Part shown: one piece after another, positions 1-61,851 of the stretch
How the letters are laid out: each line of letters begins with the position of its first letter
How positions within the stretch are numbered: position 1 is the stretch's first letter
DNA from: a virus
Direction: 5' to 3' (one strand)
Length of the DNA: 64,000 bases
IMG/VR virus record: IMGVR_UViG_3300033273_000313
Span: 1 to 64,000 of that record
Program-made: the position numbers and the translations under genes
Notes under the pieces: model-generated
What the model was told of the DNA's origin: nothing
Database searches by the model: none
The model's input: the letters and a program-made list of their open reading frames with translations, nothing else

Positions 1-1
1 T

Positions 2-277
2 AGCAATAAACGCTGGCTTCATTTCTTTATGCTGTTTGTACCTGTTATGGGTCTTTGGACCTCTTCTATTGGAATCATTGGTCTTGCTCTCAATCTTCGT
101 GCTTACGATTTTGTATCACAGGAGATTCGTGCAGCAGAAGACCCAGAATTTGAAACGTTCTATACAAAGAATATTCTATTGAATGAAGGTCTCCGTGCTT
201 GGTTAGCACCAGTCGATCAACCACATGAGAACTTCGTGTTCCCAGAAGAAGTGTTGCCAAGGGGCAACGCTCTGTGA
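2..277 (+). CDS. psbD: Photosystem II D2 protein, C-terminal part (partial, 5' end outside window)
   Basis: The frame is open from the window edge and encodes the last 91 residues of D2, which normally has about 352. The segment [12 protein letters not shown] carries the histidine that in D2 binds the non-haem iron, followed by the last transmembrane helix and the conserved tail ending LPRGNAL. D2 pairs with D1 in the photosystem II reaction centre. Phage copies are expressed during infection to keep host photosynthesis running. A strong intrinsic terminator follows nine bases after the stop. The identity is secure from the tail alone; the start and any upstream psbA lie outside the window. 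Confidence 0.97.
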
Positions 278-285
278 TATAATAT

Positions 286-310
286 GGGGGTGTTAACACC
301 CCCCTTTTTT
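286..310 (+). terminator. Intrinsic terminator after psbD
   Basis: A perfect inverted repeat, GGGGGTGTT/AACACCCCC (286-303), is followed by C and six T residues. It should end the psbD transcript. The glutaredoxin ATG directly follows the T run. Confidence 0.9.
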
Positions 311-565
311 ATGGACATTAAAATCTTTACGACGAATGGATGTGGATATTGTACCAAGATGAAAGAACTTATGGAACGTGTAGGACTTGAGTACAAAGAG
401 TATCGTCTTGGCAGAACTCTCACTATGGAAGAGTTCCAATCTTACTTCCCAAACCATACTAGTTTTCCTCGACTGGTTATTGATGAGAAACCCATCGGTG
501 ATCTTACTGAGTCTGTACGCTACTTTGTTGAACGAGGAATGATTTCTTCATCGAAAAAGAAATGA
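311..565 (+). CDS. nrdC: Glutaredoxin
   Basis: This is an 84-residue thioredoxin-fold protein. It has the dithiol active site CGYC near residues 11-14 (NGCGYCTKM), a later FPRLVI segment with the expected cis-proline, and a C-terminal IGDL motif for glutathione binding. T4-type NrdC reduces ribonucleotide reductase and so supports dNTP supply. The start at 311 matches the family N-terminus (MDIKIFTTNG). An in-frame ATG at 284 would put the terminator hairpin inside the gene. No Shine-Dalgarno is visible for either start. The stop overlaps the next ATG (ATGA). A second, altered copy lies at 27137. Confidence 0.9.
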   Translation: MDIKIFTTNGCGYCTKMKELMERVGLEYKEYRLGRTLTMEEFQSYFPNHTSFPRLVIDEKPIGDLTESVRYFVERGMISSSKKK

Positions 566-726
566 GTCAGGGATTGAAGATAAATAAAGGTGTGGAGCTA
601 ATGCTCAGGAGGGAGAAAAAGCAGGAACCCGAACCCACAGGATTCAAATTTCATCACAGAGTACACCTCCTAAAACGAAAGTTTAACTTTAAACTTGAAT
701 TCACTTGGGAGGAAGATAGTAACTAA
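562..726 (+). CDS. Small basic protein, function unknown
   Basis: This 54-residue ORF starts at the ATGA overlap with the glutaredoxin stop, which suggests translational coupling. It begins MSQGLKINKGVELMLRREKK and ends FTWEEDSN, and is rich in Lys and Arg. It fills the otherwise empty 170 bases before the next gene. A GATAAATA box resembling a late promoter lies inside it at 579-586, possibly for the downstream membrane protein gene. I recognise no family. Support comes from the coupling and the exact fit between neighbours. Confidence 0.55.
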   Translation: MSQGLKINKGVELMLRREKKQEPEPTGFKFHHRVHLLKRKFNFKLEFTWEEDSN

Positions 727-737
727 GGAGTATTACT

Positions 738-959
738 ATGACGACCCCCGTAATTTTATTCTTCTCAACGTTGATCACAGCACTGTTCTTTGTTGTGGGA
801 GTTACAATTGGTTGGACAGCAAACGATTTCCTGTATAATATACTGGCGAAAGATGATGTTCTCCACCCCGAAATGTATGACGAAGATGGTATGGTGATTA
901 ATGAAGAACTTTATTCTGTGAAATTTATCAACGACGAGGACGAGGATGATTATTATTGA
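738..959 (+). CDS. Small single-pass membrane protein
   Basis: The protein has 73 residues. An N-terminal hydrophobic helix (about residues 4-30, FFSTLITALFFVVGVTIGW) is followed by an acidic tail ending NDEDEDDYY. An AAGGAG Shine-Dalgarno precedes the ATG. The 3' end overlaps the RNase H gene by 14 bases, so the two are probably co-translated. Similar small membrane proteins sit upstream of rnh in related cyanophages, as I recall. The function is unknown. Confidence 0.75.
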   Translation: MTTPVILFFSTLITALFFVVGVTIGWTANDFLYNILAKDDVLHPEMYDEDGMVINEELYSVKFINDEDEDDYY

Positions 960-1806
960 CATGAATCAGATTATGATTAGTAATCTGATGGTCCAATTGA
1001 AAAACCAAGAACTTAATGTAGACTTGGCACGACATATGGTCTTGTCTTCATTGTTTTCTTATGAACAACAGTACGGGGAAGAGTATGGTGAGGTTGTCCT
1101 AGCATACGACAGTAAGCATTACTGGAGGAAAGAAGTCTTCCCCTACTACAAACAAAATCGAAAGAAAGACAGAGAGAAGTCTAGTCACAACTGGTCTAGC
1201 ATCTTTGAAGTCTTGAATAAGATCCGTGATGAAATCAGGGATCACTTTCACTTTAAAGTATTGGAGGTACACGGAGCAGAAGCAGACGATGTGATCTCTA
1301 CTCTTTGTAAGAACAAAGGCACTCAGAAAGTTCTGATTCTCTCAGGAGATAAAGACTTTATCCAACTTCAGAAGTACCCTGGTGTGAAGCAATTCAACCC
1401 GATCATGAAGAAGGAGGTTACCCACGATGACCCTTACACCTATGTTAAGGAGCATATTATTAAGGGTGATAAGTCTGACGGCATTCCTAATTATCTTTCA
1501 CCTGATGACACCTTTGTTGTTGGTGTAAGACAGAAACCTATTAGTCAAAAGAATCTTGCTAAGTGGGTGAAGGAAGGTCCTGGTCAGTTCTGTAAGACAG
1601 AGGAAGCACTGTCTAACTATCAAAGAAACAAACAACTGATTGACTTTGATTGTGTGCCTGAAGAGATTGAAGATAAGATCATGGATCTTTATGAGTCTCT
1701 AAATAATAATGAGAAGCAACCACCCTTGGAGTATTTTCATAAACATAAGTTGAACACTCTAATGGAAAAATATTTCTTTCGTACACCCACTACTTTTACA
1801 AAATGA
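946..1806 (+). CDS. rnh: RNase H / 5'-3' exonuclease of the FEN family
   Basis: This 286-residue protein resembles T4 RNase H, which removes RNA primers and flaps on the lagging strand. Acidic metal-binding residues are visible: D5 in MIIIDMN, D55 in AYDSKHYWRK, E112/D114/D115 in AEADDV, and D135/D137 in SGDKDF. The HIIKGDKSDGIP segment matches the FEN helix-hairpin region. The basic stretch KEVFPYYKQNRKK is typical of T4-like members. Its first codons overlap the preceding membrane protein gene, and its stop overlaps the next start. Confidence 0.9.
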   Translation: MIIIDMNQIMISNLMVQLKNQELNVDLARHMVLSSLFSYEQQYGEEYGEVVLAYDSKHYWRKEVFPYYKQNRKKDREKSSHNWSSIFEVLNKIRDEIRDHFHFKVLEVHGAEADDVISTLCKNKGTQKVLILSGDKDFIQLQKYPGVKQFNPIMKKEVTHDDPYTYVKEHIIKGDKSDGIPNYLSPDDTFVVGVRQKPISQKNLAKWVKEGPGQFCKTEEALSNYQRNKQLIDFDCVPEEIEDKIMDLYESLNNNEKQPPLEYFHKHKLNTLMEKYFFRTPTTFTK

Positions 1807-2237
1807 AACTACTTATTTCTGAAGTGCTACAAAAGGTGAGCAATGCCAAGACGAAAGCACAAAAAATTAAAATCCTACAGGAACACAACACACCTGCTCT
1901 TAGGTCTGTTCTGATCGTCAACTATGACGAGAGTGTAGTTTCTATGCTACCGCCTGGTGATGTCCCTTTTGAACCTAACGATGCCCCTGCTGGTACAGAG
2001 CACACTGTGCTAGAGCATGAGTATCGTAAGTTATACTTGTTCTTCAAAGGTGGATCTAGTTCACTCAAGCAAGCAAAGCGTGAGTCTCTATTCATTCAGA
2101 TGTTGGAAGGACTACAAGAGTCTGAAGCTCAGGTTCTTATTCTTGCCAAGGACAAGAAACTTCAGAAGAAGTATAAGATTACTAAGGCGTGTGTCGAAGA
2201 AGCATTTCCCCAGATTCAATGGGGAGGTCGTTCCTGA
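1803..2237 (+). CDS. Conserved cyanophage protein (DUF6433-like)
   Basis: The protein has 144 residues and starts at an ATGA overlap with rnh. The N-terminus (LLISEVLQKVSNAKTKAQK) and a charged C-terminal half ending EAFPQIQWGG resemble the DUF6433 proteins found after rnh in T4-like cyanophages. No catalytic motif is visible. The context suggests a replication-associated role, but this is inference. The family assignment is from memory. Confidence 0.75.
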   Translation: MKLLISEVLQKVSNAKTKAQKIKILQEHNTPALRSVLIVNYDESVVSMLPPGDVPFEPNDAPAGTEHTVLEHEYRKLYLFFKGGSSSLKQAKRESLFIQMLEGLQESEAQVLILAKDKKLQKKYKITKACVEEAFPQIQWGGRS

Positions 2238-2485
2238 TGGGGAAAGGTTGTAAAGTTTTACACTCCGACTGTGATCCAACACTGGCACAAGATAGATCTC
2301 TGCCATACACAGCATTCCTAGTTGAGTATTCTCAAGATGGTATGACCAAGTTTGATATTGTCATTGCTGCTAAGAAGGTAGATATCTTTGATGATTATTG
2401 GGATAAATATAGACATGACTTCAGGAACATGACACAAACTGAAGGTAGAGTCAACCCTAAACTTTGGAGTCCACCCAAAAAGTAA
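2237..2485 (+). CDS. Conserved hypothetical protein, 82 residues
   Basis: I chose the start at the TGATG overlap with the previous gene because a GGGGAGG ribosome-binding sequence lies just upstream. The longer reading frame to 2189 would overlap the previous gene by 49 bases. The protein begins MGKGCKVLHSDCDPTLAQD and ends NPKLWSPPKK. It is mixed alpha/beta-like with no recognised motif. It is part of the tightly packed rnh-speD gene run. Confidence 0.7.
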   Translation: MGKGCKVLHSDCDPTLAQDRSLPYTAFLVEYSQDGMTKFDIVIAAKKVDIFDDYWDKYRHDFRNMTQTEGRVNPKLWSPPKK

Positions 2486-2487
2486 CT

Positions 2488-2784
2488 ATGATTGAACCAA
2501 GTACACAAGAACAAAGAGCTATCCTAGAAGTTGTTCCTTCTAAGGCACAAACTTTTTGTATTCTTTTTTGGAAAAAGGACGAAGGTCTCAAAGCAAACAA
2601 GAAAGTTCTGAGAAGGATTAATTCTAATGGAATTCCTATCTCTACCAAAAAATATTCTGAGGTGTTTTTCTATATGGATGTGAGACATACTTTGGTTCAT
2701 GCTCAGTGGTTGCTAAAAGCTGGTTACGATGTCAAGATTCATAAGTGTAATAGAAAGGGTAACGATAAGTTCTGGTTGACATAA
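2488..2784 (+). CDS. Conserved hypothetical protein, 98 residues
   Basis: The start at 2488 lies two bases after the previous stop; an in-frame ATG at 2464 would add eight residues. The protein begins MIEPSTQEQRAILEVVPSKA and ends RKGNDKFWLT, with a basic middle (KKVLRRIN). No family is recognised. The stop overlaps the speD start as TAATG, consistent with one transcription unit. Confidence 0.65.
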   Translation: MIEPSTQEQRAILEVVPSKAQTFCILFWKKDEGLKANKKVLRRINSNGIPISTKKYSEVFFYMDVRHTLVHAQWLLKAGYDVKIHKCNRKGNDKFWLT

Positions 2785-3116
2785 TGGGTGATCACTTTTT
2801 ATTAAACCTTTATGGGTGTGACGTAGAGAAGTTAAATAACGAAAAGTTTATAGTTGAAATGTTTGAGCAGGCAGTCGTCGAAGGTAAGATGACTTTGCTC
2901 AATTTAATGACACATAAGTTTGAACCACAAGGTATTACAGCAGTAGCACTGTTAGCAGAGTCACATATTTCTATACACACTTGGCCTGAAGCGGGGTCTT
3001 GTGCTGTGGACGTTTATACATGTGGCACAACAGGTCGCCCACGCTTAGCATGTGACTATATAATTAAAGAACTAGGGTGTTCCGACCCTAGAGTCACTCA
3101 TGTTAAGAGATTATAA
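2784..3116 (+). CDS. speD: S-adenosylmethionine decarboxylase proenzyme
   Basis: This 110-residue protein is a prokaryotic class SpeD. The motif ESHISIHTWPE (residues 59-69) contains the Glu59-Ser60 self-cleavage site; Ser60 becomes the pyruvoyl cofactor. Cys80 in the VYTCG segment is the conserved proton donor region. The enzyme makes decarboxylated SAM for polyamine synthesis. Phage copies are known in cyanomyoviruses and may support polyamines for DNA packaging or host physiology. A hairpin beginning at the stop codon and a sigma70-like promoter follow. Confidence 0.95.
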   Translation: MGDHFLLNLYGCDVEKLNNEKFIVEMFEQAVVEGKMTLLNLMTHKFEPQGITAVALLAESHISIHTWPEAGSCAVDVYTCGTTGRPRLACDYIIKELGCSDPRVTHVKRL

Positions 3117-3164
3117 ATTGTATTGAATAATACAATTGACGATTTCTATATATTAAGGTAGAAT
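3116..3164 (+). promoter_or_regulatory. Hairpin plus sigma70-like promoter after speD
   Basis: A perfect 9-bp inverted repeat, AATTGTATT/AATACAATT (3116-3124 and 3129-3137), starts at the speD stop. Its last two bases begin the -35 hexamer TTGACG (3136-3141). After exactly 17 bases comes the -10 hexamer TAGAAT (3159-3164). The promoter should start transcription just before the run of small exported-protein genes. It is one of five places where a -35 overlaps or abuts a hairpin. Confidence 0.65.
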
Positions 3165-3182
3165 ACTACCATCGTTCATCTT

Positions 3183-3383
3183 ATGCTCAGCGTTCTGCTG
3201 GCATTGACCCTTGCCCATCATGCCGACGACTCACCCTACGGGTGGCATATGTCGTGTGAAAGGTTCTTACAACAGAGGATTGAAATCCTTATGGATGACA
3301 ATCTAGACAGACGATCCAAGTATAATCTTCTAGGTTATCTTAGATCGAAAGTAGAAGGTCAATGTGACGGAATGTTTACATAA
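3183..3383 (+). CDS. Small exported protein with signal peptide
   Basis: The protein has 66 residues. The N-terminus MLSVLLALTLAHHADD looks like a short signal peptide with cleavage near Ala-His. The mature part has two cysteines that could form a disulphide, in MSCERF and EGQCDG. It follows the promoter at 3136-3164 and precedes a second small protein of similar design. The function is unknown; periplasmic location is inferred. Confidence 0.65.
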   Translation: MLSVLLALTLAHHADDSPYGWHMSCERFLQQRIEILMDDNLDRRSKYNLLGYLRSKVEGQCDGMFT

Positions 3384-3418
3384 GACGCAAGTAAGTCGCG
3401 GAACGGAGCGTTCATCCC

Positions 3419-3586
3419 ATGATTGAATTACTACTGTATTCAACGCTGGCATGTGCAGATGCTGATGCTTTAATCCTTGGGATTCAAAAGCATGAGAGTC
3501 TGAAGCCAGAGTGGAAGTTAGAACTGGTCGAGACCGTAAAGGATTCTGTACCAGAATGTGACTACTACTGGGACGCAAACGACTGA
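3419..3586 (+). CDS. Small exported protein, 55 residues (conserved in cyanophages)
   Basis: The sequence begins MIELLLYSTLACADADALI and ends CDYYWDAND. The hydrophobic N-terminus resembles a signal peptide, and two cysteines remain for a possible disulphide. I recall this short family as common in cyanophages and marine cyanobacteria, often preceded by a leader like the one here (about 3384-3418, containing GGAACGGAGCGTTC). No function is known. It is shorter than usual gene-calling cut-offs and easily missed. Confidence 0.7.
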   Translation: MIELLLYSTLACADADALILGIQKHESLKPEWKLELVETVKDSVPECDYYWDAND

Positions 3587-3626
3587 AGGAACGGGGCTAT
3601 AAATCCCATCCTTTAGGAGACCTACA

Positions 3627-3791
3627 ATGAACACACTAAACATGATCCGTAATCAGATCAAGAAGCAAGCTGCTCTTCATGATGCTCAGATTGCTGTCAC
3701 CTCTTACCGTGGTGTCCGCTATGAGTGTCGGCAGAACGGTGAAGAAGTACACGGTACTTTCTGCTATCGTGGTCACACTTATAACAAGTGA
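3627..3791 (+). CDS. DUF4278-like small protein
   Basis: This 54-residue ORF has a good AGGAGA Shine-Dalgarno at 3615-3620. It carries two copies of a YRGxxY motif, SYRGVRYECR in the middle and CYRGHTYNK at the C-terminus. This pattern is typical of the cyanobacterial and cyanophage DUF4278 family. Members have no established function. The gene sits among other tiny genes. Confidence 0.75.
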   Translation: MNTLNMIRNQIKKQAALHDAQIAVTSYRGVRYECRQNGEEVHGTFCYRGHTYNK

Positions 3792-3796
3792 TCGCC

Positions 3797-3889
3797 ATGT
3801 TAGCTCTACAAGTAGTTGGACTAACGTCCCTAGGTTGTGTGGCTTTTATTGGTATGATCTACGGAGAACTTCTACTTCTTCACAAGTAG
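3797..3889 (+). CDS. Putative 30-residue membrane peptide
   Basis: The ORF begins MLALQVVGLTSLGCVAFIGM and ends GELLLLHK, so nearly the whole chain is one hydrophobic helix. It lies between the DUF4278-like gene and a strong terminator, leaving no other explanation for this stretch. No clear Shine-Dalgarno is seen. It resembles none of the small photosystem subunits I checked from memory (PsbM, PetN). Confidence 0.4.
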   Translation: MLALQVVGLTSLGCVAFIGMIYGELLLLHK

Positions 3890-3908
3890 TAGATATAACA
3901 ATCTTAAA

Positions 3909-3936
3909 GGGAGGTCTTGACGACCTCCCTTTTTTT
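3909..3936 (+). terminator. Intrinsic terminator
   Basis: A perfect 8-bp stem, GGGAGGTC/GACCTCCC (3909-3916 and 3922-3929), has a 5-base loop TTGAC and is followed by seven T residues. It ends the small-gene run begun at 3164. The loop also supplies most of the next promoter's -35 element. Confidence 0.93.
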
Positions 3937-3945
3937 GTGTATAAT
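3917..3945 (+). promoter_or_regulatory. Sigma70-like promoter embedded in the terminator
   Basis: TTGACG (3917-3922) lies in the loop and first stem base of the terminator. After 17 bases comes a perfect TATAAT (3940-3945). Transcription would begin near 3951-3953, giving the next gene (ATG 3966) a leader of about 14 bases. This rules out the upstream TTG at 3945 as a start. Confidence 0.75.
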
Positions 3946-3965
3946 TGATAAAACTGTACACATAT

Positions 3966-4142
3966 ATGGACAGACAAAAACTCAAGTTGATCGTCAAGAA
4001 CCTGGAGCTATTAGTTGACAGTTTGAAGTCGGAAGTTTATTCAGACACAGAAGCTTACCGACCCAAGTTAGAACTACAGCAAGACGCCAGCAAGTTCGGA
4101 TTTAAATACGATGAAGGAGACGACGATGGATACCCAGACTAA
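3966..4142 (+). CDS. Small hypothetical protein, 58 residues
   Basis: It begins MDRQKLKLIVKNLELLVDSL, likely an amphipathic helix, and ends with an acidic tail DEGDDDGYPD. It is the first gene after the promoter at 3917-3945, so early expression is likely. The stop overlaps the next ATG region by 17 bases. No family is recognised. Confidence 0.65.
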   Translation: MDRQKLKLIVKNLELLVDSLKSEVYSDTEAYRPKLELQQDASKFGFKYDEGDDDGYPD

Positions 4143-4437
4143 CCAACCACAATCACTCAAGCAATACATTAAGTGGCTACGCCAAGCAGTTGAGAAAGGT
4201 CACTTGTATGACAGCGAAGAGTATGCTAAAATCAAAAAGGAGTTGTATCAGGCACAACAACTTCGTAAACTAATACAAGCCAAAGAACGTTCACACTATG
4301 GATTCGGATACATCAATGAACCAGTCACCAGTCAGGTTGATCTCAGTGACTCCCGAAGCGGAGAAGACGATGGGGTACGTAGCGAGAGTATCGAACCCCA
4401 ACAATCAGGAGAATCCGAAGGTAGCGGGGCTGCTTAG
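4126..4437 (+). CDS. Hypothetical protein whose 3' end overlaps thyX
   Basis: From the ATG at 4126 it encodes 103 residues. The first 60 or so (LKQYIKWLRQAVEKGHLYDS onward) look like a real helical protein. The rest is a Ser/Glu/Gly-rich tail read in another frame over the first 122 bases of thyX. The tail is probably an extension created by loss of an earlier stop. The start at 4111 is also possible. The function is unknown. Confidence 0.6.
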   Translation: MDTQTNQPQSLKQYIKWLRQAVEKGHLYDSEEYAKIKKELYQAQQLRKLIQAKERSHYGFGYINEPVTSQVDLSDSRSGEDDGVRSESIEPQQSGESEGSGAA

Positions 4438-4957
4438 TTACTGTATCAAGCACAACCACTGGTCTGTGTTCGAGCAAGCGTTCATGACCCTGGAGATCTC
4501 TACTACCAGGGCAATAGCAGCTCAAATCCTGCGTCATCGTAGCTTCACATATCAAGAGTTCTCTCAACGGTATGCTGACAGTTCTATGTTGGCAGAACAA
4601 ATCCCTCTATTTGATCTTCGTCGTCAAGACGATAAGAACAGACAGAATTCCATCGATGACATCGATGATTTTACCAAGCAACAGTTTGAGATCCTAGTTC
4701 AGAAACATTTTGCTGAAGCAATGGATCTCTATCAAGAGATGCTTGCTAAAGGAATTGCTAAGGAGTGTGCCCGCATGGTGCTTCCCCTAGCAACTCCAAC
4801 CAAAATCTATATGTCAGGATCGGTCCGTAGTTGGATGCACTATATAGATCTACGGAGTGCTCATGGCACTCAGAAAGAACACATGATCATTGCTGAGGCA
4901 TGTCGTGATATCTTTAAAGAACAGTTCCCTATTTGTGCTGAAGCACTGGAGTGGTAA
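4316..4957 (+). CDS. thyX: Flavin-dependent thymidylate synthase
   Basis: This 213-residue ThyX carries the signature RHRSFTYQEFSQRY (residues 73-86), which binds FAD and dUMP. A second conserved region is RMVLPLATPTKIYMSG, followed by SWMHYIDLR, where the Arg contacts dUMP. The enzyme makes dTMP from dUMP using methylene-tetrahydrofolate and supplies thymidylate for phage DNA. I chose ATG 4316 (MNQSPVRLIS); the frame extends to 4298. The stop overlaps the next start (TAATG). Confidence 0.95.
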   Translation: MNQSPVRLISVTPEAEKTMGYVARVSNPNNQENPKVAGLLSYCIKHNHWSVFEQAFMTLEISTTRAIAAQILRHRSFTYQEFSQRYADSSMLAEQIPLFDLRRQDDKNRQNSIDDIDDFTKQQFEILVQKHFAEAMDLYQEMLAKGIAKECARMVLPLATPTKIYMSGSVRSWMHYIDLRSAHGTQKEHMIIAEACRDIFKEQFPICAEALEW

Positions 4958-5196
4958 TGCCTACATATCCTGTTAAACATAAAGAGACTGGAGAGACCAA
5001 GGAACTCCACATGACCATGAAAGAATACTGTGCCTGGAAGGAAGAGAATCCTGACTGGGACAGAGATTGGTCGAAAGGTTGTGCTGGTGTCGGAGAAGTC
5101 GGAGACTGGCGTAACAAGATGAACAAGACTCACCCTGGTTGGGGTGAGCACATGAAAAAAATTGCAAACATGCCTGGTTCAAAAGTAGAGTGGTAA
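4957..5196 (+). CDS. FmdB-like small protein without zinc-ribbon cysteines
   Basis: The 79-residue protein starts MPTYPVKHKETGETKELHMT, similar to the MPTY start of FmdB-type zinc ribbons. Cyanophages often have such a gene between thyX and phoH. Here the CxxC pairs are missing; the only cysteines are C23 and C40. The tail is rich in Trp and Gly and ends GSKVEW. Zinc binding is therefore unlikely, and the function is unknown. Confidence 0.7.
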   Translation: MPTYPVKHKETGETKELHMTMKEYCAWKEENPDWDRDWSKGCAGVGEVGDWRNKMNKTHPGWGEHMKKIANMPGSKVEW

Positions 5197-5199
5197 CTT

Positions 5200-5949
5200 A
5201 TGCCTAGAGGAAGAAACAAAGCTCCTGGAGCAAAGATGTCTGCCAAGCAGATGAGACGGAAGAAACCTATCAATGAGGACTATCTCCTCAAGGTAGAACC
5301 GTTGACTGAGAATCAAACAGTAATGTTCGATGCCTATGAAGCAGGCAAGAATCTGTTTGCTTATGGTTGTGCTGGTACAGGTAAAACATTTGTTGCTCTG
5401 TACCTAGCACTACGTGATGTTCTCAGTGAGGTTACACCTTATGAGAAAGTATATCTTGTACGTTCACTAGTTGCTACGAGGGAGATTGGTTTCCTTCCTG
5501 GCACACACGAAGATAAAGCATCTCTATACCAAATTCCTTACAAGAATATGGTAAAATATATGTTTGAGATGCCTGACGACAACTCTTTCGAGATGTTGTA
5601 TGAGAATCTTAAAGCACAAGAGACTGTATCTTTCTGGTCTACATCATTCCTCCGTGGTACTACACTGGACAATTCCATTGTTATCATTGATGAATGTCAG
5701 AACCTGAACTTCCACGAACTTGACAGTATCATCACCCGTTGTGGTCAAGATACTAAAATCATTTTCTGTGGTGATGCTCGTCAGTCTGATCTCCAAAAGT
5801 CTAATGAACGTACAGGTATCATTGACTTCATGAAAATCATTCAAAGTATGGAAGAAGACTTCCAGATGGTAGAGTTCGGCATCGAAGACATTGTTCGCTC
5901 TGGTCTCGTCAAGAACTATCTCATTGCTAAACTTAACCTAGGATTCTAG
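5200..5949 (+). CDS. phoH: PhoH-like ATPase
   Basis: The protein has 249 residues and a P-loop ATPase core. Walker A is GCAGTGKT (about residues 57-64) and Walker B is IVIIDECQN (about 160-168). Conserved PhoH segments LVRSLVATREIGFLPG and FCGDARQSDL are present. In hosts phoH belongs to the phosphate regulon, and in phages it is a common marker gene. Its biochemical role may involve RNA. It lies three bases after the FmdB-like gene. Confidence 0.93.
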   Translation: MPRGRNKAPGAKMSAKQMRRKKPINEDYLLKVEPLTENQTVMFDAYEAGKNLFAYGCAGTGKTFVALYLALRDVLSEVTPYEKVYLVRSLVATREIGFLPGTHEDKASLYQIPYKNMVKYMFEMPDDNSFEMLYENLKAQETVSFWSTSFLRGTTLDNSIVIIDECQNLNFHELDSIITRCGQDTKIIFCGDARQSDLQKSNERTGIIDFMKIIQSMEEDFQMVEFGIEDIVRSGLVKNYLIAKLNLGF

Positions 5950-5950
5950 T

Positions 5951-6640
5951 ATGCTCTTTAATCATGTGGGGATTGATAATCCTATTGAGATGAACACAGT
6001 TACAATCGATGGGAAGAGATACTATGTTACTCCAGAGGGTAACAAGTATCCCTCAATCACTACAGTGATTAGTAACAACTCCAAGAAGCAGAAGTCACTT
6101 GCTAAATGGAGAGCAAAAGTTGGTAAAGAGAAAGCACAGGGTATCTCTACTCGTTCAGCGACTAGAGGTACTCGCTACCACAAATTGGTAGAAGATTATC
6201 TCAACAACGAACTAGACAAGACCAAGTATAAGGACATGCCTTTGCCTTGGTTCATGTTCAATACATCTCAAAAAATCCTGGACCGTATAAATAATATATA
6301 CCTACAGGAAGCAGCACTCTATTCAGATGTGCTAAAAATCGCTGGTCGTGTTGATTGTATAGCAGAATTCGATGGAGTTTTATCCATCATTGACTTTAAG
6401 ACATCAGTGAAACAAAAACCTGAAAACTATCTACTGGACTACTATGTTCAGGAGTGTGGCTACGCTTGTATGCTTCAGGAGTTGTATGGAATTACCGTAC
6501 AGCAATTGGTGACTATTGTAGCAACGGAAGAGGGAGACCCACAGATCAGTATTGTGTCCCCTAAAAAAGAATATCTAATTTTGTTACAAGAGTACATCCA
6601 AGAATACCAAGACAAACATGCCGAAAAATCTGGAGGATAA
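5951..6640 (+). CDS. PD-(D/E)XK exonuclease (RecB-like)
   Basis: This 229-residue protein contains the nuclease core GRVDCIAEFDG followed by SIIDFKTS (about residues 137-155), giving the Asp and Asp-Phe-Lys metal and catalytic residues. A QxxxY-type helix follows in YVQECGYACML. Cyanomyoviruses usually carry such a nuclease next to phoH. It probably trims DNA ends in recombination or degrades host DNA, which is inference. ATG 5990 is an alternative start. Confidence 0.85.
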   Translation: MLFNHVGIDNPIEMNTVTIDGKRYYVTPEGNKYPSITTVISNNSKKQKSLAKWRAKVGKEKAQGISTRSATRGTRYHKLVEDYLNNELDKTKYKDMPLPWFMFNTSQKILDRINNIYLQEAALYSDVLKIAGRVDCIAEFDGVLSIIDFKTSVKQKPENYLLDYYVQECGYACMLQELYGITVQQLVTIVATEEGDPQISIVSPKKEYLILLQEYIQEYQDKHAEKSGG

Positions 6641-6644
6641 ATTT

Positions 6645-6863
6645 ATGACAACTGCGAGATTTTCGCAGGAGGTGGAGAAGGTAGCATTTGAAAACGAAAT
6701 GAATTACATTGATGCTATTGTATTTTACTGTGAAAAAAACGAGATTGAAATTGAATCCGTTCCTAAACTAATTAGCAAACCACTTAAGGAAAAACTTAAG
6801 TATGATGCCCAGAAGTTAAACTTCATGAAGAAAACGAGTCGAGCTAAGTTGTTACTACTATGA
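6645..6863 (+). CDS. 33: gp33-like late transcription accessory protein
   Basis: The 72-residue protein starts at 6645 behind a strong GGAGG site; the frame opens earlier at 6618 inside the nuclease gene. The conserved pattern NYIDAIVFYCEKNEIEIES and the C-terminal KKTSRAKLLLL match cyanophage gp33. T4 gp33 bridges RNA polymerase and the gp45 sliding clamp at late promoters. This fits the late promoter boxes seen before virion genes. Confidence 0.85.
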   Translation: MTTARFSQEVEKVAFENEMNYIDAIVFYCEKNEIEIESVPKLISKPLKEKLKYDAQKLNFMKKTSRAKLLLL

Positions 6864-7204
6864 GTAATTTCTTCCAGTCAGAAATGGTACGTGGAGATCT
6901 GCAGGAGATGGCAGAACTCCAACGCTTCTGCTTTCAATCTGCCCATGCTTTTCCTGTCCTCAGTGACAAGAAGAAGATGGAATACTTTAACGTGCTTGAA
7001 GAACTGATTGAAAAGCAGAAGATTTTTAATGCTAGGTTGAGTCTTAGTGATGATCCTGAAGCAAAAGAGATGGTACAGTCCATGAAGATGGCTGCTGTCA
7101 TGCTCGGTGGCGATGCCAATAAGTCCATCGGTGAGATCTTCGACGACCTCCTTGAGAAGGTTGCCATGATGAAGTCCGCTTTAAAAAGTGGCACAGGGGA
7201 TTGA
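6860..7204 (+). CDS. DUF1825 family protein
   Basis: This 114-residue, mostly helical protein begins MSNFFQSEMVRGDLQEMAEL and resembles the cyanobacterial DUF1825 family. It starts at an ATGA overlap with gp33 and precedes gp32, the usual cyanophage order. The function is unknown. Its stop codon lies inside the loop of the hairpin that also carries the gp32 promoter -35. Confidence 0.8.
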   Translation: MSNFFQSEMVRGDLQEMAELQRFCFQSAHAFPVLSDKKKMEYFNVLEELIEKQKIFNARLSLSDDPEAKEMVQSMKMAAVMLGGDANKSIGEIFDDLLEKVAMMKSALKSGTGD

Positions 7205-7230
7205 CTCCCGACCCTGTGCCAGTGTATTAT
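7190..7230 (+). promoter_or_regulatory. Hairpin with embedded promoter upstream of gp32
   Basis: A 9-bp stem, GGCACAGGG/CCCTGTGCC (7190-7198 and 7212-7220), encloses the hexamer TTGACT (7201-7206). TATTAT follows at 7225-7230 with an 18-base spacer. No T run is present, so the hairpin is not a canonical terminator. The leader from about 7237 to the gp32 ATG contains three spaced AATCCGA-like units just before the start. Confidence 0.6.
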
Positions 7231-7285
7231 GTATGAGTGGTAGGGATCACACAACCATAATCCGAAACAATCCGAGGAAATCCGA

Positions 7286-8161
7286 ATGTCATTTGCAGAT
7301 CTTAAGCGCAAGTCCCAGAACAACTTCCAATTCCTTCAGAAGGAACTGGAGAAGTCCAGCACCGAAAAGACTGGTGCCGACGAACGTCTCTGGAAGCCCG
7401 AACTTGACGCTAGCGGTAACGGTTATGCCGTCATCCGCTTCTTGCCCGCTCCTGAAGGGGAGACGGTGCCCTGGGCAAAGGTCTACTCCCATGCCTTCCA
7501 AGGTCCTGGTGGGTGGTTCATCGAGAACTGCCTGACCACGAAAGGTGACAAGTGTCCCGTCTGTGTCCACAACAATGGTCTGTGGAACAGTGGTCATGAG
7601 AGTGACAAGGACGTTGCTCGTAAGCAGAAACGTAAACTGTCTTACTACAGCAACATCTACGTGGTGAAAGATCCCAAGAACCCCGAGAACGAAGGCAAGG
7701 TCTTCCTGTATCGCTACGGTAAGAAGATCTTCGACAAGATCATGGCAGCAATGCAACCTGAGTTCCAAGACGAGACTCCCGTCAACCCCTTTGATCTCTG
7801 GGAAGGTGCCAACTTCAAGCTGAAGATCAAGACTGTTGCTGGTTACTGGAACTATGACTCCAGTGAGTTCGATCGTGTCGCTGCTCTGTCTGCCGACGAT
7901 GATGAACTCGAAACCATTTGGAAGCAAGCATACTCTCTCGAAGAGTACACTTCCGACAGTCAGTTCAAGTCCTACGATGACCTGGAAACCCGTCTCAATG
8001 CTGTGCTGAACGTTGCTCCCCGAGTGGCAGCAGATCAGCAGGAGGAAGATTTCGATCCTATTCCTACCGAGACCTCTTCTTTCCGTGAGAAGATGACTGC
8101 TAACACGTCAGACGATGACGATGCTCTGTCCTACTTCGCTGCTCTCGCTAACGACGACTGA
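7286..8161 (+). CDS. 32: Single-stranded DNA-binding protein gp32
   Basis: The 291-residue protein has the T4 gp32 zinc site: His69, Cys82, Cys90 and Cys93 (SHAF, NCLTT, KCPVC). The OB-fold core follows, with KRKLSYYSNIYVVKDPKN. The C-terminus is acidic (SDDDDALSYFAALANDD), used in T4 for protein-protein contacts. gp32 coats replication-fork ssDNA. GC-richer codons than in neighbours suit high expression. The N-terminal LKRKSQNN matches the cooperativity (LAST-like) region. Confidence 0.95.
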   Translation: MSFADLKRKSQNNFQFLQKELEKSSTEKTGADERLWKPELDASGNGYAVIRFLPAPEGETVPWAKVYSHAFQGPGGWFIENCLTTKGDKCPVCVHNNGLWNSGHESDKDVARKQKRKLSYYSNIYVVKDPKNPENEGKVFLYRYGKKIFDKIMAAMQPEFQDETPVNPFDLWEGANFKLKIKTVAGYWNYDSSEFDRVAALSADDDELETIWKQAYSLEEYTSDSQFKSYDDLETRLNAVLNVAPRVAADQQEEDFDPIPTETSSFREKMTANTSDDDDALSYFAALANDD

Positions 8162-8235
8162 TGAGATGGAACTATGAGAGGGTCTGCTTGACCCTCCTAG
8201 TCATCGCCACATACTACAGTTTGCTTTTTAAATAA
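8161..8235 (+). CDS. Putative 24-residue membrane peptide
   Basis: The ORF starts at a TGATG overlap with the gp32 stop and encodes a short chain beginning MRWNYERVCLTLLVIATYYS. The middle is hydrophobic with basic residues in front. Its stop overlaps the next start as TAATG. A hairpin GAGGGTC/GACCCTC (8178-8184 and 8190-8196) lies within it. Coupling to gp32 is the main support. Confidence 0.45.
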   Translation: MRWNYERVCLTLLVIATYYSLLFK

Positions 8236-8351
8236 TGGATGTAGTTCACGCTTGGAATTCTATGTCCTACGGGGAGGGGTTCCTCTTCTCCCTGTGGGTC
8301 ATCGGAATGTATTACATTAAACTCCGTATGGATCGGTACTTCACCCGATGA
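8235..8351 (+). CDS. Putative 38-residue membrane peptide
   Basis: The ORF overlaps the preceding stop (TAATG) and the following start (ATGA). It begins MDVVHAWNSMSYGEGFLFSL, has a hydrophobic stretch FLFSLWVIGMYYI, and ends in basic residues (KLRMDRYFTR), so one membrane helix is likely. It is the middle member of a coupled run of three small membrane proteins after gp32. The function is unknown. Confidence 0.55.
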   Translation: MDVVHAWNSMSYGEGFLFSLWVIGMYYIKLRMDRYFTR

Positions 8352-8545
8352 AAACATTTGCTTCGGTTCTCTTTCATCCACTCACGTTGATGAACTTTAT
8401 GATCTGTGGGTCTCTTGGTATGATTCAACTGGTCCACACCAAGGCACACTACACACTGGAGCAAGACGTTCATAGTCACGTCAGTCAAGCACTAAAAAAG
8501 AACCCAGAGCTAGCACGTTCTACCTGTTGGGAACTAGAAGATTAG
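8348..8545 (+). CDS. Small membrane-anchored protein, 65 residues
   Basis: The N-terminal half is hydrophobic (FHPLTLMNFMICGSLGMIQL) and the C-terminal half is soluble, ending ARSTCWELED. The start is coupled to the previous mini-gene by ATGA. The 3' end meets the convergent gp53 gene with a 4-base overlap, so it is the last gene of this rightward block. No family is recognised. Confidence 0.65.
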   Translation: MKTFASVLFHPLTLMNFMICGSLGMIQLVHTKAHYTLEQDVHSHVSQALKKNPELARSTCWELED

Positions 8546-10257
8546 ACTCCAGTCTGCTTCAGTCTGTTGCTAACATAGTCAGATGACTTCTTGTAGAGCG
8601 ATGCTTTCCTGAAGTCATCTACTAGTCTTCTTAAATATTCAGGTTTGAGAATATAGATCTCACGCTTCTTCTCATTTTCATAGGATTCATACTCAAAAAT
8701 AGTAACAGGTCTCGCTAGGTCAGAACCAGTAGCAGTTTCAATCATACCGTTGTTATTATATCTGAAACCATTCTTGGTAACTCTATACCATGTGCCATCT
8801 TGACGTGTCCATCTGACACCTTCGACAACAAAGTTATCAGGATCAATCTCAACGTAATCAATACTAGTTCCTACTGTATAGGTTTGGGAGAATTGATATT
8901 GAAGTTCTTGAACAGCGTACTGGTCAAAAATTTCTCCACTATTTTCTGGTTGAAATAGTCTGAACCTAGTTGTTTCTGTCTTTGCTTCTTCTGGAACTGG
9001 AATGATGAACTCATAAGGAACATCAGAATACTGACCAAACTGTACACCAGATGGTGTCTCTCTCGTACTAACTGAGAAGAGGAAGAGGTCTGGTAGATAT
9101 TCTTTTTGATTCTCACTTTGTTCGGGACCATTGTAATAGAATCCATTACCAATGTCTTCGTTCCTGATCCACAAATCAACTGTGGTGCTAGGTATGTCTC
9201 TACCACGGTCAACGATATCTATGTTAGTTATCGTTCCATCAGCAGCTACAGTAACATCAACTCTTGCTGTAGTTTCGATCTCTGCTTCACCATTACCAAC
9301 ATAGAGAGAGACGTTTTCATACAAACCCTCTGGTCTACCAGGACCACCGAAACCTAGTTCAGCCTGTGGTGTACCATCAAACTCAAAATACTGAACCATA
9401 CCTAGAGGAATGATGATATCAATGTCTTCCCAAGGATCAGTTTCATTGATTCTGTATTGTAGTTTCAAGATTTCATTTGCTAGTTCTGCTTCTTCGCCAC
9501 CGTTGATATCATTACCAAACTTTCCTTTGAATACAAAGTTGTCTAGGTGTGTAGCATCTAGTTGATAGAACTCAGCAAATCTTTCTCCAACACCCCTGAA
9601 TCTTAGGTAACCGTTGGATCTAACACCATTTCTTATTGGAGCATACAAAATAAATCCACCGTCTTCACCTTGACCATCACCATATGTCTGGAAGGTAGCA
9701 TTCTGTGAGTCAACAACGAATGAGTTATCAAATCCAGTGGAAGAGAAGACGTAGTTGTTTTCGTAGGTTACAAATTTTTGTTCAGAACTTAGGTCAGGGA
9801 ATGTGTCAGCAACTTTAGTCTCTGTACCATTGAAGAACTCTTCGTCAACCCATGTGCCAGGTGGCATCAGCACCTTACCAAATGCTGCTACCTGTTCTTC
9901 TTCACTTTTGATTTCATAGTGGTGGATGCCATAGTAGGGGTCATCATACTGACCTTCGACATGCTTTCTTAGTTCTGCCTCAGACATGGGTAGATCAAAG
10001 GTAGTATTGACCATGTTGTTAGTCAATACAATGACCCAATCATATGTCGCCCTGCCATAGACTGCCTCAGATATCTGGTCAAGTCTTTGACCATCTTGGA
10101 GAGCATACTTATTGAAGTATACTGCTTGACTAAAAGCAGTTTCACTTATGTTGTAGCGTCTGAAAAAATTCTTTGCTACAACATAGTCCGACTCAGAAAA
10201 AGGATAACTGATCGGCTTGACATCATACTTGATGGATGGTAAGAAATTAAAATACAT
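8542..10257 (-). CDS. 53: Baseplate wedge protein gp53
   Basis: The protein has 571 residues, against about 196 in T4. The N-terminus (MYFNFLPSIKYDVKPISYPF) and a LysM-like segment YALQDGQRLDQISEAVYGRA (about residues 50-70) match gp53. The rest is a long insertion rich in beta structure, as in cyanophage gp53. The protein is part of the baseplate wedge. It is the last gene of a leftward virion operon with gp48 and gp4. Confidence 0.85.
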   Translation of the reverse strand: MYFNFLPSIKYDVKPISYPFSESDYVVAKNFFRRYNISETAFSQAVYFNKYALQDGQRLDQISEAVYGRATYDWVIVLTNNMVNTTFDLPMSEAELRKHVEGQYDDPYYGIHHYEIKSEEEQVAAFGKVLMPPGTWVDEEFFNGTETKVADTFPDLSSEQKFVTYENNYVFSSTGFDNSFVVDSQNATFQTYGDGQGEDGGFILYAPIRNGVRSNGYLRFRGVGERFAEFYQLDATHLDNFVFKGKFGNDINGGEEAELANEILKLQYRINETDPWEDIDIIIPLGMVQYFEFDGTPQAELGFGGPGRPEGLYENVSLYVGNGEAEIETTARVDVTVAADGTITNIDIVDRGRDIPSTTVDLWIRNEDIGNGFYYNGPEQSENQKEYLPDLFLFSVSTRETPSGVQFGQYSDVPYEFIIPVPEEAKTETTRFRLFQPENSGEIFDQYAVQELQYQFSQTYTVGTSIDYVEIDPDNFVVEGVRWTRQDGTWYRVTKNGFRYNNNGMIETATGSDLARPVTIFEYESYENEKKREIYILKPEYLRRLVDDFRKASLYKKSSDYVSNRLKQTGV

Positions 10258-11267
10258 CAGTAAGATGCTCCCTCGATATTGATTTCATTAGAGTAGACAA
10301 GTTTTGTCTCGGAGAACTGTAGTGATAGTTCTACAGCAACTGGTCTGCCATCAGTAAATGTATTGTATGATCCATCTGGAGTGTAGTTGATGTCAACTCC
10401 AGTGATAGCACAGACTTTATACTGTGGTAGGTGATCATGTATATTAGGTCCTTTCATAAACTGAACGTTTACCAACCCTGGAACACCAATGTAGTTTGTG
10501 TTTGATGTTTTATCAGCACCAATAGTCTTCTCTTTGAGTGCCTTACCGAGAGCACCTAGATCAGCAATTCCTCCTGGATCAGGACCAAAAGATGGTAGTG
10601 CCACTTTCTTGAAGGTGCCAATGATCTTACCGATTTCTATTGCTTCAGTTTCATTACGAGCAGACATCTTAAACTTCAAACCAAATGATCTCAACTTAAA
10701 TCCCTGGAACATAAGTTCTGTGTTAGGATTCAAGACAACACCAAGAGAACCCTGGAGTACATCATTAGTAGTTACATTGTCATTACCCAGAGCATTGATG
10801 CCAGTAGCAATACCCTGAGCAACAGCTGTAGGAGCAGCACTAGCAGCAGTAGATAGACTGTTCACGAAAGAAGTGATGACTGCTCCAGCATCACCTGCTG
10901 CAGCATTGCCACCAGTTCTCAAAGCATTCATGCCAATGTTACTGAAACCTTTACCAGTCCAGTCTGTTTGATATCCTGTTGAGATATCTTCAGGCATGTA
11001 CATAACAATACGAGACGGATTTAGACCAGGATATCTAGTGTATTGTTTTCCGTTAGTCTGATTATATGTTTGGAGTTGGGGAGTGACACCATCGATATTA
11101 GTGGTGCCACCCCCACCATCACCAGAGAAAGGACCCTTGTACTTGTAGAAATCAAACATCACATAGTCAGTGTAGTTATCAAACAAATTACTAGGGTACG
11201 CTAGGCGTGCGCTGGTACTTGATGAAGCTTGACTACCTGTATTAATAAAATTAAGTGACTCTGCCAT
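10257..11267 (-). CDS. 48: Baseplate tail-tube cap protein gp48
   Basis: This 336-residue protein carries the segment GLNPSRIVMYMPEDISTGYQ and a central Ala/Gly-rich helical part, followed by a beta-rich tube-like C-terminus with YKVCAITGVDINYTPDG. The pattern fits T4 gp48, which caps the hub and starts tail-tube polymerisation. The gene overlaps both neighbours by one base. Confidence 0.85.
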   Translation of the reverse strand: MAESLNFINTGSQASSSTSARLAYPSNLFDNYTDYVMFDFYKYKGPFSGDGGGGTTNIDGVTPQLQTYNQTNGKQYTRYPGLNPSRIVMYMPEDISTGYQTDWTGKGFSNIGMNALRTGGNAAAGDAGAVITSFVNSLSTAASAAPTAVAQGIATGINALGNDNVTTNDVLQGSLGVVLNPNTELMFQGFKLRSFGLKFKMSARNETEAIEIGKIIGTFKKVALPSFGPDPGGIADLGALGKALKEKTIGADKTSNTNYIGVPGLVNVQFMKGPNIHDHLPQYKVCAITGVDINYTPDGSYNTFTDGRPVAVELSLQFSETKLVYSNEINIEGASY

Positions 11268-11956
11268 TACCTTACCATATCCTTACTTGATTTCTTAGCA
11301 TACCCCTCGATGACTCGTTGTGCTTTTATGTTATCGTAGAAAGAATCATTGGTCTCTTTCCATACATCCTCTTTAGGATAAGGGAAGACATGACCATTGA
11401 CATCCTTAACAAAGTCCTCGGTTGGAAGCAGAATAGCTGTGTCCCATTCTGCTGAAGCGAGATCAAGATAGAATCCGTCTACATGAGAGTGCAAGTATTT
11501 ATGGAAGCACTTCTTGGGAAACTCGATACGATTATACTTTAGTAGTTTGTTGACTGCCATGATCCTACGCTTGATAGGTAGGTAGTGTAGGTTGGCACCA
11601 AAAAATTCATTTTTATTTGACTTGATCACATAGACAAGAGGGAATCTATCGTAGTAAGGTAACCATCTCATCTTAGCTTTGTACTCAAACATGTACAGGT
11701 GACCAGCAACTACATAACGACGGACCATGTTCTGGTCCTGTTCATTCTTAGCACCTGTACTATCTCTACGTTCTGCTGAGATGTAGCGTGTGTTGTCTGT
11801 ACCATATACTTTGGACTCAGACTTTACAGCAGCACGATACCAGGAGAGAGGTTTCTTTTCTCCTTCTGTTTTCTTAGTTATCTTTTCAAACAAAGTTTCG
11901 TAACCAGTGTCATCTGTCTGCTGATTACGTTGGATGGACTTGAATCCAGTTGCCAT
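11267..11956 (-). CDS. Conserved virion protein, not assigned (gp2 candidate by position)
   Basis: This 229-residue protein contains the motif GHLYMFEYKAKMRWLPYYDR followed by FPLVYVI, and later LHYLPIKRRIMAVNKLLKYN. The motif recurs in cyanophage genes next to gp4. By position it could be the DNA end-protector gp2, or another head or baseplate protein; I cannot decide from sequence. It starts two bases after the gp4 stop. Confidence 0.6.
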   Translation of the reverse strand: MATGFKSIQRNQQTDDTGYETLFEKITKKTEGEKKPLSWYRAAVKSESKVYGTDNTRYISAERRDSTGAKNEQDQNMVRRYVVAGHLYMFEYKAKMRWLPYYDRFPLVYVIKSNKNEFFGANLHYLPIKRRIMAVNKLLKYNRIEFPKKCFHKYLHSHVDGFYLDLASAEWDTAILLPTEDFVKDVNGHVFPYPKEDVWKETNDSFYDNIKAQRVIEGYAKKSSKDMVR

Positions 11957-11957
11957 T

Positions 11958-54752: not shown

Positions 54753-55136
54753 ATGTACGTTACCACAAGAAATTTTGTAGAGTGGATGAGGCACTACACA
54801 GAGGCAACACAATCAACCATTGTACTGTTGAGAACTGTTGGTCCTGATGGTGTAGATGATGCCACTAAAGCAAACCAGATCTATTCAGCATACTATTTGA
54901 ATATGCAGTCGGAGAACCCTGCTATCTTCGATAAACTATTGTACAATGAGTTTACATTTGTAGAGTTCAGTACAGAGGAGTCAGCAGATGAATTCTGTAG
55001 AGATAACTTCCCAGGAGTTAAACCAACCGACACTGATTATTTTATTCAATACGTTATTTTTAGTAATGGATTGTATGTACGAGGAAACGACGGCATGACT
55101 GGTCTACGAGAACCGAGACCACAGACACTGGAATAA
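54753..55136 (+). CDS. Hypothetical protein, 127 residues
   Basis: The protein begins MYVTTRNFVEWMRHYTEATQ and ends MTGLREPRPQTLE. It has an alpha/beta appearance (FTFVEFSTEESADEFCRDNF) and no recognised motif. It is the last gene before a strong terminator, so it ends the fibre transcription unit. Confidence 0.68.
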   Translation: MYVTTRNFVEWMRHYTEATQSTIVLLRTVGPDGVDDATKANQIYSAYYLNMQSENPAIFDKLLYNEFTFVEFSTEESADEFCRDNFPGVKPTDTDYFIQYVIFSNGLYVRGNDGMTGLREPRPQTLE

Positions 55137-55144
55137 CTGGCACA

Positions 55145-55168
55145 GGGGGTTGGCAGACCCCCTTTTTT
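55145..55168 (+). terminator. Intrinsic terminator after the fibre block
   Basis: GGGGGT/ACCCCC (55145-55150 and 55157-55162) with loop TGGCAG is followed by six T residues. It separates late fibre genes from the helicase operon. Confidence 0.92.
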
Positions 55169-55180
55169 ATGCCGTATAAT
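55150..55180 (+). promoter_or_regulatory. Possible sigma70-like promoter overlapping the terminator
   Basis: TTGGCA (55150-55155) covers the terminator loop, and a perfect TATAAT lies at 55175-55180. The spacer is 19 bases, longer than ideal. It would transcribe the helicase operon starting at 55206. Confidence 0.5.
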
Positions 55181-61822: not shown

Positions 61823-61851
61823 TTGACAGCAGACGCTTTGTCTGCTAAATT
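61823..61851 (+). promoter_or_regulatory. Sigma70-like promoter with hairpin in the spacer
   Basis: TTGACA (61823-61828) is the perfect -35. After 17 bases comes TAAATT (61846-61851), a 4/6 -10, with TATTAT and TATAGT just beyond. The spacer is an exact hairpin AGCAGAC/GTCTGCT (61828-61834 and 61840-61846). It precedes the operon starting at 61883. Confidence 0.55.

Follow-up and report, generated by a model that had tools for sequence, protein, structure and literature searches.

A putative terminator-promoter fusion at an operon boundary of a T4-like cyanomyovirus

Introduction

Can about 40 bp of phage DNA end one transcript and start the next? The question arises at positions 3906-3945 of a viral sequence, where a promoter -35 hexamer begins in the loop of a hairpin that resembles an intrinsic terminator. 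We analysed bases 1-64000 of a 66,024-base IMG/VR virus record; this whole stretch of 64,000 bases is called the window. An initial annotation of the window had described the element and listed five further sites as similar hairpin/-35 arrangements. The six are named here A (3909), B (3116), C (7190), D (55145), E (61823) and F (8178). By its gene content and similarity the source is a T4-like cyanomyovirus, a placement made because of PHROG matches and a BLAST search of bases 1-12000 against phage records, in which Synechococcus, Cyanophage or Prochlorococcus phages made up nearly all of the 386 records returned. An Rfam search of the window found three tRNAs and nothing else.

Methods

The pooled set consisted of the window and five isolates, S-PM2, Syn9, P-SSM2, P-SSM4 and S-H9-2. 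Near-identical contexts (over 75-90% identity) were removed before sequences were counted as distinct, and homologues whose match did not begin at the first residues were removed before counts, as was locus L001. Loci L144-L151, short pieces of genomes that were also taken whole, were excluded from the relative sets of sites A, B and E; pieces of T4, KVP40 and P-SSP7 were excluded from the site A relatives and the pooled cyanophage numbers. The locus sets count orthologous sites many times, and site-level counts are not independent.

Results

Site A reads GGGAGGTC-TTGAC-GACCTCCC, followed by T7 and then by TATAAT 17 bp past TTGACG; in segments it is AAAGGGAGGTC-TTGAC-GACCTCCCTTT, the T-run, GTG and TATAAT (Table 1). 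The original description of 3909-3945, a terminator with a -35 in its loop and TATAAT at 17-base spacing, agrees with the sequence base for base. The site has the stable G+C-rich hairpin and the T-run right behind the stem of an intrinsic terminator, together with the -35/-10 hexamers at 16-18 bp spacing of a sigma-70 promoter. The hexamers match the sigma-70 -35/-10 at 11 of 12 positions (TTGACG-17-TATAAT), and the RNA fold reaches -18.6 kcal/mol with a z of -5.4, none of 200 shuffles being equally stable. ORFs with PHROG matches to phrog_6471, phrog_504 and phrog_545 precede the site, and phrog_878, thymidylate synthase, PhoH and exonuclease follow it. Both functions are inferred from sequence, by which site A appears to end one transcript and start the next. 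Between the phrog_545 ORF and site A, we also observed a possible 29-codon ORF (3798-3887), a similar end of which was seen by eye in locus L070.

Table 1 Coordinates and basis of the features discussed
Feature	Position	Strand	Basis
Reverse layout: TTGCCA - 18 bp - TATAAT, 2 nt on terminator GGGGGTG-ttaa-CACCCCC + T6	254..310	+	sequence, fold
Site B GTAN8TAC, NtcA-type box beside -35	3120..3133	+	operator-like, not terminator
Site B promoter TTGACG - 17 bp - TAGAAT	3136..3164	+	motif match
ORF upstream of site A, phrog_545 (function unknown)	3627..3791	+	PHROG match
Site A terminator hairpin	3906..3932	+	stem 3906-3916/3922-3932, G+C core 3909-3916/3922-3929, loop TTGAC 3917-3921
Site A -35 TTGACG	3917..3922	+	loop + first base of 3' arm
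Site A T-run (T7)	3930..3936	+	sequence; directly after stem
Site A -10 TATAAT	3940..3945	+	17-bp spacer from -35
First ORF past site A, phrog_878	3966..4142	+	PHROG match
Site C upstream box AAGTGGCACA, overlapping hairpin 5' arm	7186..7195	+	box listing
Site C hairpin TGGCACAGGG / CCCTGTGCCA around gp32 -35, no T-run	7189..7221	+	sequence, fold
gp32 promoter TTGACT - 18 bp - TATTAT	7201..7230	+	motif match
Site F hairpin GAGGGTC-tgctt-GACCCTC + weak promoter after gp32, no T-run	8178..8215	+	sequence, fold
Site D upstream box AACTGGCACA	55135..55144	+	box-to--10 spacing kept across loci
Site D terminator hairpin GGGGGTT-ggca-GACCCCC + T6, upstream of uvsW	55145..55168	+	sequence, fold, relatives
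Site D uvsW -10 TATAAT	55175..55180	+	sequence + relatives
Site E TTGACA - 17 bp - TAAATT, hairpin in spacer, no terminator tail	61823..61851	+	sequence, fold

The phrog_878 ORF had 51 homologous hits, whose upstream regions, together with that of the window, gave 52 regions in which the element could be followed among relatives. A T-run (at least six T) was present in 39 of these and missing from 13; among the T-run-less regions listed, most also lacked such a promoter. In the distinct relatives that bear the T-run, it is T7 in 30 of 32 and lies 3-4 nt from the -10 in 28 of 32. A TTG hexamer is found 16-18 bp before the -10 in 24/32, and a -35 with at least four of six matches in 29/32, its letters varying among TTGAC, TTGCA, TTGAT and TTTAC. 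The arms fall into 13 kinds. When the six bases before the T-run were made to seek a partner with loops of up to 12 nt (33 distinct relatives), the 3' arm paired with its own 5' partner in 31, compared with 115 of 576 pairings in a swapped-arm control, where the foreign arm differed at two or more of the six positions. The stems change yet still pair, with the -35, T-run and -10 mostly in register, and the site A stem is therefore held by pairing and not by sequence.

We compared these arrangements with chance expectation in the window and in the isolates. Thirty dinucleotide shuffles of the window yielded a terminator followed by a -10 at 8-12 nt 0.07 times per shuffle (maximum 1), and a good -35 accompanied none of these. 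Three such cases occur in the real window, at 3909, at 55145 and on the minus strand at 3091, the last of which lies inside coding sequence and is probably due to chance. Eight TTGAC promoters with a -10 matching at five or more of six positions were found in the window, and two of them (3917 and 7201) have a hairpin over the -35, against 0.23 expected from shuffled flanks; for the pooled TTGAC promoters the count is 19 of 163, with 5.5 expected from shuffled flanks. In the window and five isolates together, 31 -10 matches lie 8-12 nt past the stem cores of 153 terminators, where 7.2 would be expected from the region 20-79 nt past terminator stems (p 4e-11). Thirty of 151 distinct terminators in this set have a -10 at that distance, and the offset peaks at 10-11 nt.

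The excess is unevenly distributed. Observed (expected) numbers were 3 (0.08) in the window, 3 (1.2) in S-PM2, 11 (2.4) in P-SSM2 and 9 (0.6) in S-H9-2, with little excess in Syn9 (2, 1.2 expected; 32 terminators) and P-SSM4 (3, 1.8 expected; 27 terminators). No excess was seen in T4 (2 versus 2.6 expected), KVP40 had 7 versus 4.1 expected, and none of the seven terminators of P-SSP7 is followed by a -10 at 8-12 nt. Hairpins over the -35 were likewise found at 0/39 promoters in P-SSM4 and 2/33 in Syn9. Together, the window shuffles, the shuffled promoter flanks and the offset peak rule out a chance origin. The initial annotation had held five cases in one window to be unlikely by chance and had proposed shuffled controls. 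Enrichment over shuffled sequence is real, if uneven, but five was an overcount.

Site D, upstream of uvsW, is the second of the listed sites at which a terminator with a T-run is followed by a -10 in register and both are kept in relatives. We collected 61 upstream regions, 29 of them distinct and 24 of these with a strict -10; a strong hairpin precedes the -10 in 21/24 and a T-rich tail is present in 20/24. In the window, the spacing between TTGGCA and the -10 is 19 bp, and the z of the fold is only -1.8. The proposed likeness to site A holds for the true U-tract terminator with TATAAT behind it and fails for the loop -35, which is not conserved: a -35 with at least four of six matches at 16-18 bp was found in just 5/24 distinct relatives. 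We therefore rejected the loop -35 as the essence of the element at uvsW, given its retention in 5/24 versus 21/24 for the hairpin. What is conserved there is a box, AACTG(G/T)CACA, 28-30 nt ahead of the -10, and this box seems to stand in for the -35.

Site C, upstream of gp32, does place its -35 (TTGACT) in a hairpin loop as had been claimed, the loop having 13 nt and the stem 10 bp, but no T-run follows the stem, the tail reading AGTGTATTAT, so that this part of a terminator-promoter fusion is missing. From 65 gp32 upstream regions we obtained 44 distinct ones with a TTGAC promoter, and eight regions had none. The hairpin encloses the -35 in only 15 of these 44, which form a subclade, and stem changes are matched on both arms, as in GGCAGAAGG/CCTTCTGCC and GGCACAGCG/CGCTGTGCC. 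Among the gp32 sequences listed, no T-run was seen except in L018. In the relatives compared, the promoter is the constant part of this region, and the hairpin comes and goes. Separately, gp32 was seen with two alternative leaders that resemble structured RNA, one of them containing GTTGGGCAG...GTAAGACCCAAC.

The remaining three sites had also been listed as similar, F more weakly, and none has a T-run. Site B carries an A+T-rich inverted repeat next to the -35 (-5.4 kcal/mol), with neither a G+C-rich stem nor a T-run. Its GTAN8TAC is in register in seven of ten distinct sequences, window included, and out of register in two more; the in-register sequences have 25-27 nt from box to -10. In class II NtcA promoters the box lies about 22-23 nt from the -10. 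By this motif, site B looks like an NtcA-type operator, and NtcA sites have been reported in cyanophages (PMC3037559). At site E, two distinct near relatives, with proteins over 90% identical to that of the window, retain the hairpin and a more distant one lacks it; at site F the -10 is weak (CATACT). The six claimed sites thus comprise two terminators with promoters, one hairpin-loop -35 without a terminator tail and three of something else. The idea that all listed sites are alike was rejected, B, E and F having no terminator tail and C no T-run; judged by sequence, the list is a mixture of at least four kinds of thing.

The upstream box was recovered from counts of 7-mers before TATAAT/TATACT in the five isolates, which gave CTTGACA at -24, AACTGGCACA at -40, CTTTTTT at -12 and the reverse complement of AACTGGCACA at about -53; some sites have the whole dyad TGTGCCAGTT-N4-AACTGGCACA. 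Over all loci examined, 139 distinct cases have TATAAT 26-33 nt past AACTGGCACA; the gap is 28-30 nt in 128 of them, and a hairpin occupies the spacer between box and -10 in 56, against 7.6 expected from shuffled spacers. The consensus is AACTG(G/T)CACA; sites C and D have the box, and site A does not. In the window, AACTG(G/T)CACA and close variants were seen at 7186, 55135, 61130 and 61352, at a fixed distance from the -10 and sometimes as a dyad. We read the box as a candidate activator site of cyanomyoviruses that would replace the -35 and leave room for a terminator. The Syn9 transcriptome study of Doron et al. 2016 reportedly described a novel regulatory element for early genes, and the AACTG(G/T)CACA box may be that element. 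Among the matches listed for the box letters in open-licence papers, nothing concerned cyanophage promoters. A sigma-54 -24 element was considered and rejected: AACTGGCACA resembles one, but the -10 that accompanies it at 28-30 nt is TATAAT. To our knowledge, cyanobacteria lack sigma-54.

The opposite order of parts was also found. Near the start of the window a promoter is followed by a terminator (Table 1), and this reverse layout, with a hairpin 0-2 nt past TATAAT, also occurs in P-SSM4, S-PM2, Syn9 and S-H9-2. Among 151 terminators, we counted 22 instances of a -10 placed 0-8 nt ahead of the stem (7.6 expected), some of which look like coding sequence, with one terminator entered twice. 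RNA begun at such a promoter would have its first base within the 5' arm and therefore could not fold the terminator, whereas read-through RNA could. Other conserved elements were noted near the small genes. Upstream of phrog_504 and phrog_6471 genes, a -10 lies in a short inverted repeat with co-changing arms (for example TATGGTATAATTACCATA and GGTCTATAATGAGACC), followed by conserved CGTTCATC. The strongly conserved leaders GGGACGCAAGTAAGTCGCGGAACGGAGCGTTCATCCCATG and GGGACGCAAACGACTGAAGGAACGGGG lie upstream of phrog_504 and phrog_545 genes, with no Rfam match in the window.

We extended the analysis to IMG/VR with the pattern TTGACN(6-9)T7N(2-5)TATAAT, whose first 120 stretches, not a random sample, gave 114 distinct sites. 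Among the matches listed, a stem of at least 6 bp ends at the T-run in 66/114, and the spacing is 17 bp in 92/114. The geometry of the pattern forces TTGAC into the loop, and the evidence lies in hairpin presence only. Among the matches listed for a control pattern with CAGTT for TTGAC, the hairpin was found in 3/93 and the spacing was flat; among those listed for bacterial and archaeal genomes, again not a random sample and with many of the bacterial hits in low-GC Firmicutes, it was found in 13/119. From 20 of the 42 hairpin loci listed, one large ORF per locus was compared with PHROG; two of the 20 had no match, and among the hits of the remaining ORFs are T4-like genes for the clamp loader, DNA polymerase, single-strand binding protein and baseplate as well as cyanophage psbA. 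That the element is a recurring boundary element, as originally suggested, is borne out by the pairing-preserving stem changes at site A, the -10 peak after terminator stems and these hairpins around the -35.

A third layout, in which TTGAC lies on the 3' side of a long hairpin and is followed by T7 and TATAAT, was present at no fewer than 13 IMG/VR loci. Its 48-base core was found in 284 phage records, 283 of them Synechococcus phages, cyanophages or Prochlorococcus phages and one a marine virus; in the two that were opened, S-SRM01 and RN05-S, it separates an Hsp20 gene region from the DNA polymerase operon. The vibriophage KVP40 has a repeat, AAAGGGTTGACnnnnGTCAACCCTTTCTTGTATTAT, that like site A combines a terminator hairpin with a -35/-10. 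The TTGAC screen found five copies of it, and the terminator screen added others with TTGC. Unlike site A, its -35 begins in the 5' arm instead of the loop, its spacer is 18 bp and its T-run is short. In the KVP40 pieces L196-L208 we observed a repeated AAAGGGTTGAC-nnnn-GTCAACCC-TTTC-N-TATTAT, a separate vibriophage family of terminator-promoter elements.

Discussion

With a probability of about three in four, we interpret 3906-3945 as a terminator-promoter fusion at an operon boundary, the same build occurring at uvsW with a box seemingly in place of the -35. RNA of the upstream small-gene operon would fold into the G+C-rich hairpin and be released in the T7 run. As duplex, the same DNA would serve as a promoter of the host sigma-70 type, with the -35 in the loop, a spacer made of the 3' arm and the T-run, and the -10 3-4 nt further on. 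This promoter would start the operon of thymidylate synthase, PhoH and exonuclease, with initiation about 7 nt past the -10. The uvsW boundary would work alike, except that an upstream box, probably bound by a putative activator, appears to replace the -35. The likeliest reason for such a layout, which many related viruses keep and which often precedes their DNA-replication genes, is compactness: transcription would halt before the next start, and a boundary of about 40 bp would suffice.

Each half has familiar counterparts. Site A shares the G+C-rich stem, short loop, T-run and thermodynamic stability of intrinsic (Rho-independent) terminators; unlike in ordinary ones, its loop and 3' arm also spell a promoter -35 and spacer. 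With the sigma-70-type promoters of T4-like cyanophages it shares TTGACN, a 17-bp spacer and TATAAT, and it differs from those known in that the -35 and spacer lie inside a terminator. Sigma-70-like motifs have been reported upstream of S-PM2 and Syn9 early-gene homologues (PMC2984593). The second promoter class seen here has a weak or no -35 and the AACTG(G/T)CACA box. Among the open-licence titles and abstract openings on overlapping terminators and promoters and on cyanophage and phage promoters, none described an element of this kind. Taken singly, an intrinsic terminator or a sigma-70 promoter is nothing unusual; on the sequences compared, the fusion with a loop -35 across many phages would be the new part.

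The weakest competitor to this interpretation takes the terminator alone as active and the -35/-10 match as decorative. The variation of the -35 among relatives speaks for it, but a -35 of four or more matches and a -10 in register are kept in most relatives, and the 17-bp spacing in 92/114 distinct IMG/VR sites listed stands against a flat control spacing, which makes this account highly improbable. It is also improbable that the hairpins are DNA palindromes bound by a regulator, or promoter-switching cruciforms, and not terminators. Site C would suit such a role, its palindromic stem including the upstream box and having no T-run, as would the inverted repeat of site B with GTAN8TAC in register in 7/10 distinct sequences. 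At sites A and D, however, the stems change wholesale among relatives, a freedom incompatible with binding by a sequence-specific protein, and the T-run stands on one side only. Passive crowding, in which terminator and promoter overlap merely from short intergenic gaps and their positions drift with no selected register, is in keeping with the short gaps of phages and with the gp32 hairpin that comes and goes round a constant promoter (15/44 distinct relatives). We regard it as unlikely, since crowding alone would spread the offsets, whereas the offset is fixed (peak 10-11 nt) and the gap from T-run to -10 at site A is near-constant while the stems change completely.

A further possibility concerns what the overlap might do. 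It could place a just-released polymerase on the next promoter, where it would restart and so couple successive operons. RNA polymerase covers roughly 18 bp ahead, and because its footprint reaches that far, termination at about 3934-3936 would leave it over the -10 and the start site. Terminator and promoter are almost no distance apart here, and most relatives keep the geometry to within 1-2 nt. Kang et al. 2020 (PMC6978380) showed in vitro that E. coli polymerase remains bound to DNA once its RNA has been released and can initiate again at nearby promoters, an event described there as unobserved in vivo; the authors expect it to depend on the distance between terminator and promoter. Such post-terminational recycling predicts that a terminator-adjacent promoter can be refired by the same polymerase. 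Their system is E. coli in vitro (PMC6978380), whereas ours is phage DNA with an overlapping terminator and promoter in which a restart is hypothetical and the polymerase would be cyanobacterial. The -35/-10 spacing by itself would also yield a fixed geometry, a polymerase paused at the terminator would cover the promoter too, and compactness accounts equally well for the data. We therefore consider hand-over of polymerase rather unlikely, and retain the compact terminator-promoter fusion as our interpretation.

A broader proposal is that many tailed phages, above all T4-like cyanophages, have repeatedly evolved such fusions ahead of replication operons, as a relay in which a polymerase released at the end of one operon would restart from the next promoter and so time the operons without a phage-coded switch, and that a new activator at TGTGCCAGTT-N4-AACTGGCACA would replace the -35 at some cyanomyovirus boundaries. 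On the present sequence comparisons, we hold this proposal to be doubtful.

For annotation, calling terminators and promoters independently would miss one shared element. If our interpretation is right, terminator and promoter would share about 40 bp, naturally and in evolutionarily repeated fashion, before marine-phage operons, namely those of thymidylate synthase/PhoH and uvsW and, as the searches showed, of DNA polymerase. Elements of the site A type would make restart by a recycled polymerase directly testable in vivo, a process so far seen in vitro according to Kang et al. (PMC6978380). Moreover, the candidate cyanophage box, at its fixed distance from the -10, could account for the activation of genes that have no -35.
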